In this document: piece by piece, positions 32,637 to 38,956 of the stretch
Layout of the letters: the number at the start of each line of letters is the position of its first letter
Numbering within the stretch: the stretch's first letter is position 1
Origin: Trueperaceae bacterium
Lineage (GTDB): Bacteria; Deinococcota; Deinococci; Deinococcales; Trueperaceae
Direction of reading: 5' to 3'
DNA length: 64,000 nt
Assembly (NCBI GenBank): GCA_023954415.1
Contig: JAMLIB010000006.1
Coordinates: forward strand, 62,001 to 126,000
Translations under genes and position numbers: made by a program
Notes under the pieces: generated by a model
What the model was told of the DNA's origin: nothing
What the model saw: only the letters and a program-made list of their open reading frames with translations
Databases searched by the model: none

Positions 32637-34013
32637 TCACAGGTCGATGGGCACTCCGAACTCCGGCAAGGACACGCGGCGCCCGCTGTGCCTCAGCTCC
32701 GCCGCGAAACCGTCCATCACTTCCGGCTCGCCGTGGACGAGGAGCACGTGCGTGGCGCCGGTCGGCGTCATGAACGCGAGCAGGTCGTCGTGATCGGCGT
32801 GGGCCGAGAAGCCCCTGATGTTCTCGATGGCGGCACGCACCACCACCTCCTCGCCGAACAGCTTGACGCGCTTGGCGCCGTCCAGGAGGAGCCTGCCGAG
32901 CGTGCCGTGCGCCTGGTAGCCGACCACGATGAGGGTCGCCTCCTCGCGCCAGAGGTTGTGCTTGAGGTGGTGCCTGATCCGGCCGCCGGTCAGCATGCCG
33001 GAGCCCGCGATGACGACCGCCCCGCCGGTGACCTCGTTGATGGCCTTCGACTCGTCCGCCGTCACGGCGTAACGGAGCGTCGGCGGCTCGAACGGGTCCT
33101 GGCCGGCGTCTATCAGGTCCGCTATCTCCGGCCGGAAGTCGCACGCGCACTCCTGATACAGGCGCGTCATCTTCGCGGCCATCGGCGAGTCGAGGAAGAC
33201 CGGCAGCTTCGGGACCTGCCCGGCGGTCATCAGGCGGTTGACGAGGTAGAGGACCTGCTGGGCCCGTTCCGCGGCGAATGTCGGGATCATGACGTTGCCG
33301 CCCTTCTCGAGCGACCGCGCTAGCGCTGCCCGGAAGCGTGCCTCCGTCTCGGCGCGTTTCGGGTGCGTCTGGTCGGCGTAGGTGGACTCGATGACGAGCA
33401 CGTCGCACGCGTCCGGCGGCTCCGTCGGCGCTTGGATGCTGCTCTCGCGGTTGCCAAGGTCGCCGGAGAAGACGAGGCGCGCCTCGCGCGTCCGCAGCTC
33501 GATGTAGGCGCTGCCGAGGATGTGCCCGGCCGGTCTGAAGGTGGCCGTGACGCCGTCGGCGACGCGCACAGGCTCGTGCATCGCCACGCTCTGGAAACGC
33601 GCGATGGCTGCCTCGACGTCCGCCAGGGTGTAGAGCGGACCCTGCAGCTCGGACTCGCGTCCGGCGCGGCGCGCCTTACGCAGGTCCCGTTCGAAGTCCT
33701 CCTCCTGCAGCTTGGCGGCGTCCCGGAGGATGATGGCGGCCACGTCGGCCGTGGCCTTGGTGGCGAGGAAGCGCCCCGCGTAGCCCGCCTTCACTAGGAG
33801 CGGCAGGCGACCGACGTGATCGAGGTGCCCGTGGGTTACGAGCACGGCGCCGAGGTCGCGCGGCTCGAAAGGGAAGGGCGCGCGGTTGAGGGCGTCCAGC
33901 TCGGCGCCGCCCTGGAAGAGGCCGCAGTCGACCACGAGTTGGAAGTCGCCGAGGTCGAGGTGGTGGCAGCTGCCCGTGACGGTGCGCGCGGCGCCGGCGC
34001 TGGTGAACCTCAT
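32637..34013 (-). CDS. MBL-fold beta-CASP ribonuclease-like protein with RMMBL domain
   Basis: A 458-residue protein of the CPSF73/YSH1-type bacterial family. The metallo-beta-lactamase core has VVDCGLFQGG and THGHLDHVGRLP (zinc ligands). It is followed by the beta-CASP insert (ESTYADQTHPKRA, FLDSPMAAKMTRLY, IAGSGMLTGGRIRHHL) and the RNA-specificity domain (KLFGEEVVVRAAIENIRGFSAHADHDDLL). Members act as RNA endo- or exonucleases. It overlaps the upstream MBL gene by 4 nt. A degenerate copy of its own tail follows the stop. Confidence 0.92.
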   Translation of the reverse strand: MRFTSAGAARTVTGSCHHLDLGDFQLVVDCGLFQGGAELDALNRAPFPFEPRDLGAVLVTHGHLDHVGRLPLLVKAGYAGRFLATKATADVAAIILRDAAKLQEEDFERDLRKARRAGRESELQGPLYTLADVEAAIARFQSVAMHEPVRVADGVTATFRPAGHILGSAYIELRTREARLVFSGDLGNRESSIQAPTEPPDACDVLVIESTYADQTHPKRAETEARFRAALARSLEKGGNVMIPTFAAERAQQVLYLVNRLMTAGQVPKLPVFLDSPMAAKMTRLYQECACDFRPEIADLIDAGQDPFEPPTLRYAVTADESKAINEVTGGAVVIAGSGMLTGGRIRHHLKHNLWREEATLIVVGYQAHGTLGRLLLDGAKRVKLFGEEVVVRAAIENIRGFSAHADHDDLLAFMTPTGATHVLLVHGEPEVMDGFAAELRHSGRRVSLPEFGVPIDL

Positions 34014-35062
34014 GCGTCGCCGCCCTTCTCGAGTCGCGCGGCTCCGGCGACCGGCGCGGACCGGCCTTCAGGCTCTTCGGCGGCGCGGCGCGCCCGCCGC
34101 CAGACGAGGCGCCCGGCCTCCAACGCGCAGACGATCTCGCCCAGTTCCCGGAGGCGGCCGAGGTGGGCGGACACGACGCAGAAATTGAGGTGGTAGCGAG
34201 CCAGGTCGTCGAGCGCGACGCCGAGGCTCTCGGCGGAGCCGGCCACCACGTCCTCCGTGCTCGCGCCGGAGCGCGCCTCGGGCGCGGCACAGGCCGTCAG
34301 GACGGCGTCGGCCGCGCGCAGAACGGCCACGCGGTTGCTATTTGCGACGCCTGTGATGTCCTCGGTCGGGGCGCCGTGACCGGGGAGGAGAACCCTGGCG
34401 TCAACGCCGGCCACCGTCTCGAAGGCCCGCAGTTGTCCGACCACGTCCTGGGCGAACGGGATGGGGTACTTCTCCAGCGTCTCCGCGCCGAACACCGCGT
34501 CCGCGGCCAGCAGCACGTCGTCGACGAGCACGGCCAGCTGCCTGTGGGCGTGGCCCCTCACGTCGAGCAGCTCGAAGCTCGCGCCGCCGACGGTGTCACG
34601 GCCGGCGGTCAGGACGCGGTGGACAGGGGAGGCCTCGGCCTGCAACCACTTGCCCGTGAGTTCAGGCAGTGGCTTGGCGCCGTGAAACAGGTAGATGGGC
34701 TCGAGCGCCGGGGTGCGGATGATCTCGGCCTCGATCTCGGGGGCCCAGACCCGCGCCTCCCGGAACTGCCTGAGGAGGTAGGCGTTGCCGCCGTAATGGT
34801 CGGCGTGCGAGTGCGTGGCCAGGATGACGGCTAGCTCCAGGCCGAGCGCGTCGAGAGCCTTACGGACCTTGCGTCCGTACTCCTTGTCCTGACCGCTGTC
34901 GATCAGGAGGGCGCGGCCATCGCCGACATCGACGATGGCGCAGTTGACACCCCCGAGCACGGCATGGACCCGCTCTGAGAGTTGCACGGACGTGGGCCTC
35001 TGACCGGTCGCCGGCTCGGCGACGGCCGCGGGCGCGGCGTTACGCGTTCCCTCGCTGGACAT
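34010..35062 (-). CDS. MBL-fold metallo-hydrolase (SoxH/glyoxalase II-like)
   Basis: A 350-residue hydrolase with the motif THSHADHYGG (zinc site), DVRGHAHRQLAVLVDDVLLAADAVFG and LPGHGAP. It has an N-terminal Ala/Pro-rich extension of about 30 residues and a C-terminal helical region resembling the winged-helix tail found in some LACTB2-like proteins. TACCCT 5 nt before the ATG suggests it leads the operon with the beta-CASP gene, which it overlaps by 4 nt. The substrate is unknown. Confidence 0.87.
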   Translation of the reverse strand: MSSEGTRNAAPAAVAEPATGQRPTSVQLSERVHAVLGGVNCAIVDVGDGRALLIDSGQDKEYGRKVRKALDALGLELAVILATHSHADHYGGNAYLLRQFREARVWAPEIEAEIIRTPALEPIYLFHGAKPLPELTGKWLQAEASPVHRVLTAGRDTVGGASFELLDVRGHAHRQLAVLVDDVLLAADAVFGAETLEKYPIPFAQDVVGQLRAFETVAGVDARVLLPGHGAPTEDITGVANSNRVAVLRAADAVLTACAAPEARSGASTEDVVAGSAESLGVALDDLARYHLNFCVVSAHLGRLRELGEIVCALEAGRLVWRRARRAAEEPEGRSAPVAGAARLEKGGDA

Positions 35063-35098: not shown

Positions 35099-36433
35099 TC
35101 AGACCGCTCTACGCAAGCGCGCGACGTAGAAGCCGTCGAGCCCGGCCAAGGGCAGAACGTACCGGCCGTGGTCCACCGCATGCGTCGGGAGCGGAAGCTC
35201 GAACTGCTCCGAGGCGAACCCGTCGCCATGGCTCGAGGTCAGGAACCGCGCCACGACCAGCGGACCCTCCTCCGGTGTCAGGGCGCACACGGCGTACTGG
35301 AGCAGGCCGCCGGGCGCGACCACGGCCGCCGCCGTCGCGAGCATGCGCGCCTGCGTCTCGGCCGCGGAGGCGATGTCCTCTGGGGTGAGCCGGAGCTTGA
35401 TCTCCGGGTGCCCCCGCAACGTCCCCGTGCCGCTGCAGGGCGCGTCGAGGAGGACTTGGGGTGCGGGGGCGACGTCGAGCGGTCGCGTGAGGTCCGCGGT
35501 CAAGTGCTTCACGCTCAAGCCGAGGCGCCGCAGGTTGCGCTCCGCGGCGGCCGAGCGGCGCGGGTCGAGCTCCACGGCGCACACCTCGGCGCCCAGCGCG
35601 GCCAGCACGGCGCTCTTCACGCCTCTGCCGCTCGCCAGGTCGAGGACGCGACCTCCCGGCGGTGGGTCGAGGAGCAGCGCGACCTGCAAGGAGGCGGGGT
35701 TCTGAGGTTGCACGAGGCCGGCGGTGAAGGCCGCGAGCCGGTCGACGCTCATGGGCGCCATGACCCGCAACGAGTGGGGTCGACCCTCCCGCACCGTCCC
35801 GTAGGCCGACACGACGGCGCCGTCGGCCTCCAGGGCGGTCCGGGCGGCCGGCCCGAACGCGGTCAGCCACAACGGCTCGGGCTCCAGCATGGCCGCCGCG
35901 GCCCCCGGGGCATGCTCTCCGAGGGCGGCCGCGAAGCGCTCGTACAACCAGGCGGGCAGCGAGGCGCGTAGAGCGGCAGCCGCGTCGGGCGGCCGGGCAG
36001 CCGGCAGCGGCGCCACACGCCTGAGGACTGCGTTGACGAGCCCGGCGAGCCCCGGGGCCTCGCTCTTGACGATGCCGACCCAGGCGTCGACGGCGGCGTA
36101 CGGTGGCGTGCCACGGTGCAGCACCTCGAAGGCGCCGAACCGCAACGCGTCCATCACTATTGGCGGCAGGCGATCGGGGCGCTTGAGCAAGGGTGCCAAC
36201 ACCGCGTCCAGCTCGAGCATGCGCCTGGCGACGCCGTAACTGAGGTCGGTGACGAGCCCGCGATCGGCGCGACCGAGCGGCGCGGCGCTCAAGTACTCGT
36301 GGAGCGTAGGAGCGAGAAAGGCGCCGCCGCGCATGCGCCCAAGCACGGCCAGCGCCATGCGCCGCGGCTCGTCGCCCGCCGCGGCGCCTCGCGTGCGTCC
36401 ACCAGCCGCCGTTCTTGAGCGTGTGCCGTCCAC
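35099..36433 (-). CDS. rsmB: 16S rRNA (cytosine-C5)-methyltransferase RsmB
   Basis: A 444-residue enzyme with an N-terminal NusB-like RNA-binding domain (about 20-145) and a C-terminal Rossmann SAM-dependent methyltransferase domain. It shows LDLASGRGVKSAVLAALGAEV, and the two catalytic cysteines of the RsmB/Nop2 family: Cys333 in DAPCSGTGTLRG and Cys383 in QYAVCALTPEE. In E. coli the enzyme makes m5C967 of 16S rRNA. The GTG start is supported by TAACGT 6 nt upstream. It lies downstream of the SpoVS-like gene. Confidence 0.94.
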   Translation of the reverse strand: MDGTRSRTAAGGRTRGAAAGDEPRRMALAVLGRMRGGAFLAPTLHEYLSAAPLGRADRGLVTDLSYGVARRMLELDAVLAPLLKRPDRLPPIVMDALRFGAFEVLHRGTPPYAAVDAWVGIVKSEAPGLAGLVNAVLRRVAPLPAARPPDAAAALRASLPAWLYERFAAALGEHAPGAAAAMLEPEPLWLTAFGPAARTALEADGAVVSAYGTVREGRPHSLRVMAPMSVDRLAAFTAGLVQPQNPASLQVALLLDPPPGGRVLDLASGRGVKSAVLAALGAEVCAVELDPRRSAAAERNLRRLGLSVKHLTADLTRPLDVAPAPQVLLDAPCSGTGTLRGHPEIKLRLTPEDIASAAETQARMLATAAAVVAPGGLLQYAVCALTPEEGPLVVARFLTSSHGDGFASEQFELPLPTHAVDHGRYVLPLAGLDGFYVARLRRAV

Positions 36434-36521: not shown

Positions 36522-36842
36522 TTAGCTCGTCACCGACGGCTCGGGCACCCCGGCCGGATCGAGCCCGCCGCCTTCCGCGACCGGCCTGGACGTCACGAGG
36601 AAGCGCACCGCCGTCCGCTCCTCGCCGAGCAGCTCGAGCCGCACGAACGACGGAACGGCGTACAGGTCCAGCCGGTCGTTCTCGAGGTAGGAGCGGGAGA
36701 TGGCGATGGCCTTCACGGCCTGGTTGACCGCCTGCGGGCCGATGGCCTGGACTTCCACCTCGCCCTCGCTCCGTAGGAGCGCCGCGATGGCGCCGGCCAC
36801 GGAGTTCGGGCGAGACGATCCGGAGACGCGTAGGATTTCGAT
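36522..36842 (-). CDS. spoVS: stage V sporulation protein S (SpoVS)-like protein, apparent ATC start
   Basis: A 106-residue protein matching SpoVS through EILRVSGSSRPNSVAGAIAA, VEVQAIGPQAVNQAVKAIAI and GEERTAVRFLV, plus an 18-residue C-terminal tail. SpoVS homologues are small (about 86 residues), bind nucleic acid or help development and division, and also occur in non-sporulating Thermus/Deinococcus. They begin MEVLKVS or similar. Here the matching position is an ATC codon (36842-36840) with GGGAGG 6 nt upstream. No ATG, GTG or TTG is in frame for about 40 codons; the next ATG (36974) would add a non-homologous 44-residue extension. I therefore infer ATC initiation. Confidence 0.8.
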   Translation of the reverse strand: MEILRVSGSSRPNSVAGAIAALLRSEGEVEVQAIGPQAVNQAVKAIAISRSYLENDRLDLYAVPSFVRLELLGEERTAVRFLVTSRPVAEGGGLDPAGVPEPSVTS

Positions 36843-36848
36843 GGCGGA

Positions 36849-36854
36849 CCTCCC
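36849..36854 (-). promoter_or_regulatory. Shine-Dalgarno site that decides the ATC start of spoVS
   Basis: On the minus strand GGGAGG is followed by TCCGCC and then ATC GAA ATC. The 6-nt spacing is ideal and the position matches the N-terminus of SpoVS homologues. Confidence 0.7.
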
Positions 36855-37025
36855 AGCAGCAGGACTGCTTGATTGTGCGCCAAGCGAAGCCCGGAGCCAT
36901 GTGTCGCCGTCACTTCGCCGCGCGAGGGCGCCCTCGCGCGGACGCTTATGCGAACGGCTATACACCGCCACCAAGCGCTAGGCGCCAGGAACGCCGAGCG
37001 CCACGGCGTGAACTCGCCGGGCGGG
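36855..37025. other. intergenic region between spoVS (-) and the ilv promoter (+)
   Basis: No gene is recognised here. It holds the spoVS 5' region, with a possible TTGGTG/CATAAG promoter pair on the minus strand (weak), and the 24-bp palindrome at 36918-36941. Confidence 0.5.
36918..36941. repeat. 24-bp perfect palindrome upstream of spoVS
   Basis: A perfect inverted repeat of 12 bp per arm centred on GGCGCC, about 75 nt upstream of the spoVS start. It is either an operator or a stable 5'-UTR hairpin. Confidence 0.7.
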
Positions 37026-37055
37026 TTGACACCGTGAGCGGAACGCACGTATAGT
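37026..37055 (+). promoter_or_regulatory. ilv operon promoter
   Basis: A perfect TTGACA (37026-37031) and TATAGT (37050-37055) with an 18-nt spacer. Transcription should begin around 37062, within a few nt of the leader-peptide ATG. Confidence 0.85.
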
Positions 37056-37063
37056 GCCCGCCA

Positions 37064-37138
37064 ATGACGGTTTCTCTGTCGGGAGCGATCACCAGCTGGG
37101 GCCTACTAATTACCAGCTCGCGGGGTCGTGCCGGCTAG
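37064..37138 (+). CDS. ilvL: ilv leader peptide (attenuation control), 24 aa
   Basis: A small open frame starting 8 nt after TATAGT and ending in TAG. It encodes 24 residues with the run Gly-Leu-Leu-Ile at codons 13-16, written GGC CTA CTA ATT, plus Val, Leu and Ile earlier. CTA and ATT are rare choices in this GC-rich genome and would make translation sensitive to charged tRNA-Leu and tRNA-Ile. The control codons lie in the loop of a hairpin (37094-37118), upstream of an intrinsic terminator. The arrangement is that of a classical ilv/leu attenuator; expression is inferred, not shown. Confidence 0.75.
   Translation: MTVSLSGAITSWGLLITSSRGRAG
37094..37118 (+). promoter_or_regulatory. leader hairpin 1:2 enclosing the control codons
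   Basis: AGCTGG (37094-37099) pairs with CCAGCT (37113-37118). The 13-nt loop contains CTA CTA ATT. Segment 2 continues into GCGGGG (37120-37125), which is complementary to CCCCGC (37162-37167) in the terminator's left arm. That gives an antiterminator incompatible with both flanking hairpins. Confidence 0.6.
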
Positions 37139-37161
37139 TCAACGTCAAGACTGCCACTGAG

Positions 37162-37192
37162 CCCCGCCGGATTCGAGCACGGCGGGGTTTTT
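37162..37192 (+). terminator. intrinsic terminator (attenuator) before ilvB
   Basis: An 8-bp perfect GC stem CCCCGCCG (37162-37169) / CGGCGGGG (37180-37187), a 10-nt loop and five T residues. It lies 57 nt upstream of the ilvB ATG, inside the operon's own leader. Confidence 0.9.
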
Positions 37193-37249: not shown

Positions 37250-38956
37250 ATGACAGGTTCGGAAGTCGTGATGAAGCTCCTCGAGAGGCATGGCGTGGGG
37301 GTGATATTCGGTCATCCAGGCGGCGCCATCATGCCCATCTACGACGCGCTCTACGATTCGCCGATCAAGCACGTCCTCGTCAGGCACGAGCAGGGCGGCG
37401 CGCACATGGCCGACGCCTACTACCGTGCGAGCGGCAAGGTCGGCGTCTGCTTCGCCACGTCCGGCCCGGGGGCGACCAACCTGGTGACCGGCCTCGCGAC
37501 GGCCATGATGGACTCCTCGGCCGTGGTGGCGATCACCGGCAACGTCGCCAGCGGCCTCATCGGCACCGACGCGTTCCAGGAGGCCGACGTCTACGGCATC
37601 ACGGGCCCCGTCACCAAGCACAACTACCTCGTCAAGCGCGTCGAGGAGCTCCCCCAGGTGCTCGCCGAGGCGTTCCATATCGCCTCCACCGGCAGGCCCG
37701 GCCCGGTGCTCGTCGACGTTCCCAAGGACGTGCAGCTGGCCAAGTACGACGGCTCCCTCGACGCCGAGATCGACCTGCCCGGCTACAAGCCGACGATCGT
37801 CGGGCACGCCGGCCAGATCCGCAGAGCGGCCGAGGCCATCCGGGCCGCCAAGCGCCCCGTGATGATCGTCGGCGGCGGCGGCCAGGTCGCGCCGCGCGAG
37901 GTGGCCGAGCTGGTGGAGCGCACCGGCATCCCCGTCATCACGACGCTGATGGGCATCGGCGCCTACCCGCCGGCCGCGGACGAGTCCCTCGGCATGCCCG
38001 GCATGCACGGCACCGTGTCCGCGAACAAGGCGATCAGCCACTGCGACCTCATCCTCGGGGCGGGCCTGCGCTTCGACGACCGGGTGACGGGCAAGATCAG
38101 CCGGTTCGCTCCCAACGCCACCGTCGTGCACATCGACATCGACCCGGCCGAGATCAGCAAGCTCGTCAAGGCACACGTGCCGGTGGTCGGCGACCTGCGC
38201 GACGTGCTGCCGCGCCTCACGCAGGAGCTCGGGCCGCTCGACATCGGCGAGTGGCGCGAGACGCTCGCCGGTTGGAAGGCCACGTACCCCGAGAAGTACA
38301 CGCTCGACAAGCCGCTCGTGTCGCAGGAGGTCCTCGCGATGCTGCGCGAGGCGACCGCTGGGGAGTGCGTGGTGGCTACGGAGGTCGGGCAACACCAGAT
38401 GTTCGCCGCGCGCATGCTCCCGACCACCAAGGCGCGCTCGTTCATCACGTCGGGCGGCCTCGGCACCATGGGCTTCGGCCTCCCCGCCGCCATCGGCGCC
38501 GCCATCGCGCGCAAGGGCGAGACGGTGGTCCTGGTCGCGGGCGACGGCAGCCTCCAGATGAACATCCAGGAGCTGGCCACCCTGTACAAGGAGAACCTCC
38601 CCGTCGTCATCGCCATCCTCAACAACGGCGTCCTCGGGATGGTCCGCCAGTGGCAGGAGCTCTTCCACGCCCAGCGTTACAGCGAGATCTACCTCGCCGA
38701 CTCCAACCCGGACTTCGCCAAGCTCGCCGAGGCGTACGGCATCGAGGGCCACAACATCCACGACCGCGACACGGCGAAGAGCGCCATCCGAGCGGCCGTC
38801 GCGGCCAAGAAGCCCGTGCTCCTCAACTTCTTCGTCTACGAGGCGGAGAAGGTCTTCCCGATGGTGCCTGCGGGCGCGGGCGTCGACGAGATGATCCTCG
38901 GCGACCAGGAGCCCGACGCCCATGAGGTCCGTGAGCCGGAACCGGTGGCTCGGTGA
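37250..38956 (+). CDS. ilvB: acetolactate synthase large subunit IlvB
   Basis: A 568-residue ThDP/FAD enzyme making acetolactate or acetohydroxybutyrate, the first common step of Val, Leu and Ile synthesis. It has the N-terminal VIFGHPGGAIMPIYDAL with VRHEQGGAHMADAYYRASG (catalytic Glu), FAD-domain segment GVNR-like GAGLRFDDRVTGKISRF, and the ThDP motif VAGDGSLQMNIQELATLYKENLPVVIAILNN. The ATG follows GGAGG. It is first structural gene behind the attenuator, and overlaps ilvN by 4 nt. Confidence 0.97.
   Translation: MTGSEVVMKLLERHGVGVIFGHPGGAIMPIYDALYDSPIKHVLVRHEQGGAHMADAYYRASGKVGVCFATSGPGATNLVTGLATAMMDSSAVVAITGNVASGLIGTDAFQEADVYGITGPVTKHNYLVKRVEELPQVLAEAFHIASTGRPGPVLVDVPKDVQLAKYDGSLDAEIDLPGYKPTIVGHAGQIRRAAEAIRAAKRPVMIVGGGGQVAPREVAELVERTGIPVITTLMGIGAYPPAADESLGMPGMHGTVSANKAISHCDLILGAGLRFDDRVTGKISRFAPNATVVHIDIDPAEISKLVKAHVPVVGDLRDVLPRLTQELGPLDIGEWRETLAGWKATYPEKYTLDKPLVSQEVLAMLREATAGECVVATEVGQHQMFAARMLPTTKARSFITSGGLGTMGFGLPAAIGAAIARKGETVVLVAGDGSLQMNIQELATLYKENLPVVIAILNNGVLGMVRQWQELFHAQRYSEIYLADSNPDFAKLAEAYGIEGHNIHDRDTAKSAIRAAVAAKKPVLLNFFVYEAEKVFPMVPAGAGVDEMILGDQEPDAHEVREPEPVAR

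Follow-up and report, generated by a model that had tools for sequence, protein, structure and literature searches.

The window, a stretch of 64,000 nucleotides from a Trueperaceae bacterium, carries a spoVS gene whose conserved N-terminus begins at an ATC codon. This raises the question whether translation starts at that codon and, if so, what such a start may mean for the expression of the gene. In the literature searched, no report of a non-canonical spoVS start was found.

The spoVS gene and its product

The spoVS coding sequence was located on the minus strand at 36522..36842 (106 codons plus stop) from its match to PF04232, from the Thermus structures 2eh1 and 2ek0 and from its translation. 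The ATC codon occupies 36842-36840 and the stop codon TAA 36524-36522. Read on the minus strand, the 5' end runs GGGAGG, six bases, ATC GAA ATC CTA CGC GTC, with GGGAGG at 36854-36849 and the spacer TCCGCC at 36848-36843; taken as GGGAGGT (36848..36854, minus strand), the Shine-Dalgarno sequence has the start 5-6 nt downstream. The preliminary description had given the same motif and 6-nt spacer without naming a strand, and had counted about 40 upstream codons without ATG, GTG or TTG. Both statements agree with the minus strand sequence, where the nearest canonical codon in frame is a GTG at -41, followed upstream by GTG at -43, TTG at -44 and a stop at -46.

The protein matched the SpoVS family PF04232 with E=1.5e-34 and 118 bits (Pfam gathering cut-off 24). 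Position 1 of the profile aligned with the Glu directly after the ATC codon, and the same Glu is residue 2 in the Thermus SpoVS chain 2eh1, thus Met1 corresponds to the ATC codon. The AlphaFold model of the window protein (pLDDT 89.5) was superimposed on 2ek0 with a Z score of 18.9 and 0.9 A over 90 residues, residue 1 lying on residue 1. The first strand of the model comprises residues 3-6, so close to the N-terminus that a later start cannot be accommodated. Thermus thermophilus SpoVS (2eh1, 2ek0) shares family and fold with the window protein, at 67% identity over 90 residues, but its gene, like spoVS in all sampled Thermaceae, starts with GTG and not with ATC.

Start codons in Trueperaceae and outgroups

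At the place of the SpoVS methionine codon we found ATC in 22, ATA in two, ATG in seven and GTG in three of 34 Trueperaceae genomes. An ATC or ATA start was hence present in 24 of the 34 genomes and in 14 genera, with ATA in two genera, a recurrence at one exact position that exceeds chance. This answers the question, raised in the preliminary description, whether ATC is conserved at orthologous loci: within Trueperaceae it is. In the outgroups spoVS started with GTG, apart from an ATG in one family and in a single additional genome, in a genome set from which the Deinococcaceae were apparently missing apart from one control genome. The ATC and ATA codons were preceded by a Shine-Dalgarno sequence of the GGAGG type, with a 6-8 nt match to AAGGAGGTGA, in all cases except G002 and G031. 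In G031 a GTG is found at -3 upstream of the non-canonical codon and a canonical start is possible there. Some genomes have ATC ATC in tandem, where the exact start codon is ambiguous.

In five genomes of five genera the stretch from the upstream stop to the ATC contains no ATG, GTG or TTG; the stop is at codon -2 in G010, -7 in G026, -12 in G036, -30 in G023 and -35 in G022. These genomes make the ATC separable from an internal Ile codon. G022 belongs to the genus of the window; its SpoVS is 92% identical and the last 40 bases of its leader are almost identical. Farther upstream than these 40 bases, the alignment within the genus contains one-base gaps and has no coding look.

Selection on the start codon

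We built a tree from SpoVS, RsmB and IlvB sequences, rooted with Thermaceae and other Deinococcota. On this tree four changes were required between the ATC/ATA and the ATG/GTG class, compared with 13 when the labels were shuffled. Most parsimoniously, the non-canonical start was gained once, at the root of Trueperaceae, and lost three times: in the genus of G024-25, in that of G013-16 and in most of that of G031-35. Within the family, the start codon changed five times at its third base, whereas the count at fifteen fourfold-degenerate positions of spoVS was 9-14 (mean 11.5). G is frequent at the fourfold-degenerate sites across the genomes and was found in none of the 24 ATC/ATA starts at the third base; under free drift of this base, ATG should have arisen on many occasions. 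The internal Ile codon I34 changed four times, as slowly as the start codon, so the count of changes alone does not tell a start from an Ile codon. Taken as a comparison of sequences, these data support well that the non-canonical start is retained by selection, which disfavours a G in its third position. The reversion to ATG or GTG in three lineages indicates that the non-canonical start is dispensable there.

The leader and a putative promoter

About 30 bases before the ATC the motif CANAAT was kept in all six genomes of the window's genus (as CACAAT, CATAAT or CAGAAT in the alignment); in the window it reads CACAAT at 36872..36877 on the minus strand. If it belongs to a promoter, it would be the -10 box of spoVS and the leader would be about 25 nt long; a sigma-70 scan did not detect this element. 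The spoVS leader of the window folded no better than shuffled sequences (z 0.3) and had no match in Rfam. We also observed a GTGACG at 36908-36913 (minus strand), which precedes the start of spoVS by about 65-70 bases and is kept in 6/6 genomes of the genus, which is possibly the site of a regulator.

Other origins of the ATC codon

Three readings would remove the non-canonical start. SpoVS could begin upstream, at TTG(-44) or GTG(-41/-43), with the ATC as an internal Ile codon. This fits the reading frame of the window, open back to codon -46, and the slow rate of change at the ATC, which is about that of an Ile codon. Against it, the frame of G022 is closed by a stop at -35 with no canonical codon after it, and the four other genomes likewise lack a canonical start, so that an N-terminal extension is refuted for all five. 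The one-base gaps in the upstream alignment also argue against it, and other lineages have ATG or GTG at the place of the ATC while the position of the Shine-Dalgarno sequence is unchanged. If CANAAT is the -10 box, the upstream GTG and TTG codons would moreover lie off that transcript. We judge the upstream start to be very unlikely. Even less credence is due to initiation at the GTG that forms codon 15 in the window, since it would cost the protein its first strand together with the conserved motif LRVSGSSRPN, and codon 15 is GTG in only 10 of 33 genomes; this candidate was rejected. Equally improbable is an ATG turned into ATC by a sequencing or assembly error. The window's genome is indeed a draft of 30 contigs, yet ATC was found in independent assemblies of many genera, some of them single-contig (G012, G020, G036), and these refute the error. 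The preliminary description had named ATG orthologues combined with a sequencing error as evidence that would overturn its proposal. ATG orthologues do exist, in two genera and one outlier of separate lineages, and of the error there was no sign. The ATC at 36842-36840, kept as ATC/ATA in 24/34 Trueperaceae genomes and with a slowly changing third base, is strongly supported as the true spoVS start by conservation, by the five forced cases and by the structural model. The start assigned in the preliminary description is borne out on these same grounds, and the start position together with selection on the codon can be regarded as well supported.

Rarity of such starts and comparison with infC

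As a control for rarity, 400 kb of the window's genome was aligned with a second species of the genus. Among 340 ORF pairs, 121 had a conserved ATG, GTG or TTG start led by a Shine-Dalgarno sequence; the control is partial, as 214 of the 340 pairs were without a clear Shine-Dalgarno sequence and some pairs may be shadow frames. The only stand-alone conserved non-canonical start with a Shine-Dalgarno sequence in this control was that of infC, all other non-canonical matches being inside conserved coding sequence or beside a canonical start. A list of ORFs in which the alignment extended beyond the first canonical codon was set aside due to noise from shadow frames.

infC, the gene of IF3, is known to start with AUU, AUC or AUA and to be autoregulated by IF3. 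Its starts were read by eye from the Shine-Dalgarno sequence and the conserved N-terminus at loci L145-L174 and L217-L226. The codon was ATT in the window's genus, mostly ATA or ATC in the rest of Trueperaceae, and ATA in several Thermaceae and other Deinococcota families checked, with GGAGG-type Shine-Dalgarno sequences ahead of these starts. It was non-canonical even in Trueperaceae with a reverted spoVS start. An IF3-sensitive kind of start is thus in use across these genomes. In G024 (L160) a TAG stands directly before the ATA start of infC.

A possible link to IF3

We propose that Trueperaceae spoVS is probably translated from AUC or AUA as a start that IF3 discriminates, with a low and IF3-linked output. 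The strong Shine-Dalgarno sequence would recruit the 30S subunit onto AUC or AUA and compensate for the weak codon. The initiator fMet-tRNA(CAU) would pair with the first two bases and mispair at the third, and IF3 would destabilise the mispaired 30S complex, leading to repression of spoVS. SpoVS output would then be low and would rise as the ratio of IF3 to 30S subunits falls, the start codon acting as a sensor as in infC. Such an arrangement would presuppose that the cell benefits from SpoVS being scarce or tied to IF3. On our analysis, IF3 most likely exerts translational control over spoVS; this view is favoured by the ATT, ATA or ATC start of infC in the same genomes and by the precedent of sigR, and the retention of a strong Shine-Dalgarno sequence together with a weak codon also leans towards a link to IF3.

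The start could instead be real and selected and yet only set a constant low level of SpoVS, a tuning of dosage without regulation by changing IF3. The same sequence evidence fits, as a fixed weak start would look identical in sequence. Replacement by ATG or GTG in three lineages and the ordinary fold of the window leader (z = 0.3) agree with a fixed level, and the work on sigR itself shows no stress-induced derepression. However, a weaker Shine-Dalgarno sequence or a GTG or TTG codon would also cut output, and what was kept is a strong Shine-Dalgarno sequence with a rare codon, of the IF3-sensitive kind that these genomes have on infC. We therefore consider constant dosage possible but the less likely explanation. 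A more speculative and rather improbable variant is that SpoVS itself acts on 30S initiation, its AUC codon serving as the sensor in a feedback loop like the one between IF3 and infC. It is suggested by the Alba fold, which resembles the C-terminal domain of IF3 (IF3-C) in topology, and by the position of the gene upstream of the 16S rRNA methyltransferase gene rsmB. A common topology of SpoVS, Alba, YhbY and IF3-C has been published (PMC11621453). In our comparison the SpoVS model had an Alba-like fold with Z 10-11 to archaeal Alba, and Z 7-8 to IF3-C, a range where chance likeness is possible; YhbY was absent among the structural matches listed.

The preliminary description had called the product a developmental regulator, a label for which we found no support. 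SpoVS is an Alba-fold protein also present in phyla not known for spores, and the family has been described from Chloroflexi, Thermotogae and Deinococcus-Thermus (PMC8510167). A sporulation role for the Trueperaceae protein is not implied. In one Trueperaceae genome (G001) SpoVS-like sequence occurs at four places, of which two are very divergent.

Comparison with known systems

Very few bacterial genes besides infC are, to our knowledge, known with a selected non-canonical start. infC and spoVS share the AUH start, the strong Shine-Dalgarno sequence, the rarity in the genome and the genomes themselves. They differ in that infC encodes IF3, with feedback, while spoVS encodes SpoVS, for which no feedback is known, and in that the non-canonical start of infC is phylum-wide and that of spoVS limited to one family. 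A parallel outside translation factors is Streptomyces sigR, which has a GTC start behind the Shine-Dalgarno sequence AGGAGGTG. The GTC is conserved across the genus, whereas relatives outside the genus use canonical codons; infC fidelity alleles derepress sigR, and additional IF3 represses it (PMC5472188). Initiation on codons with a mismatched third-base pair is reduced by IF3 in vitro (PMC10158994). Like spoVS, sigR combines a rare start with an extended Shine-Dalgarno sequence, encodes something other than a translation factor, and has its rare start in one bacterial group, with canonical starts in relatives. Its start is GTC and not ATC or ATA, its repression by IF3 was assayed whereas spoVS is known from sequence, and its product, unlike SpoVS, is a sigma factor that has an anti-sigma partner.

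Within the same phylum, Deinococcus deserti dnaA and rpsL reportedly start with ATC and CTG, as identified through N-terminal proteomics by Baudet et al. in 2010 in Mol Cell Proteomics. These are likewise non-canonical starts, on other genes than spoVS; the window's genome carries an ATG where dnaA is expected to begin, and no ATC as in D. deserti. spoVS probably joins the small class of genes with selected and, by our reading, IF3-read non-canonical starts. The sister genera in which the start has reverted to ATG or GTG offer a natural comparison for asking why a cell would put a gene under IF3. For annotation, a restriction to ATG, GTG and TTG misplaces or loses the spoVS start in most of Trueperaceae.

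Gene neighbourhood

Downstream of spoVS on the same strand lies a gene for an RsmB-like 16S rRNA m5C967 methyltransferase (35099..36433), which matched PF01189/PF01029 over the cut-off and RsmB models below it. In many Deinococcota loci rsmB is adjacent to spoVS or one gene after it. RsmB methylates C967 of 16S rRNA near the P site. In most genera a gene resembling a membrane zinc-metallopeptidase, YugP-like by look, is found between spoVS and rsmB (for example L003 3273-4133 and L025 3156-3959); it is missing there in the window's genus.

On the other side, ilvB for the large subunit of acetolactate synthase (37250..38956, plus strand; TIGR00118) is the divergent upstream neighbour. It adjoins spoVS across Trueperaceae, with ilvBN divergent from spoVS. 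Upstream of ilvB, the region 37026-37192 (plus strand) contains a promoter TTGACA-18-TATAGT, a leader ORF MTVSLSGAITSWGLLITSSRGRAG at 37064-37138 (plus strand) with Leu-Leu-Ile codons, and thereafter a GC-rich inverted repeat at 37162-37187 followed by a T run. Judged from these sequence features, the region is likely an ilvB attenuator.

Farther downstream on the minus strand, 32637-34013 encodes a beta-CASP metallo-beta-lactamase, adjoined by a second metallo-beta-lactamase gene at 34010-35062. The beta-CASP protein matched the NCBIfam models for type VII Cas14 and aCPSF1 well below cut-off, and looks like an ordinary RNase rather than the product of a CRISPR gene.
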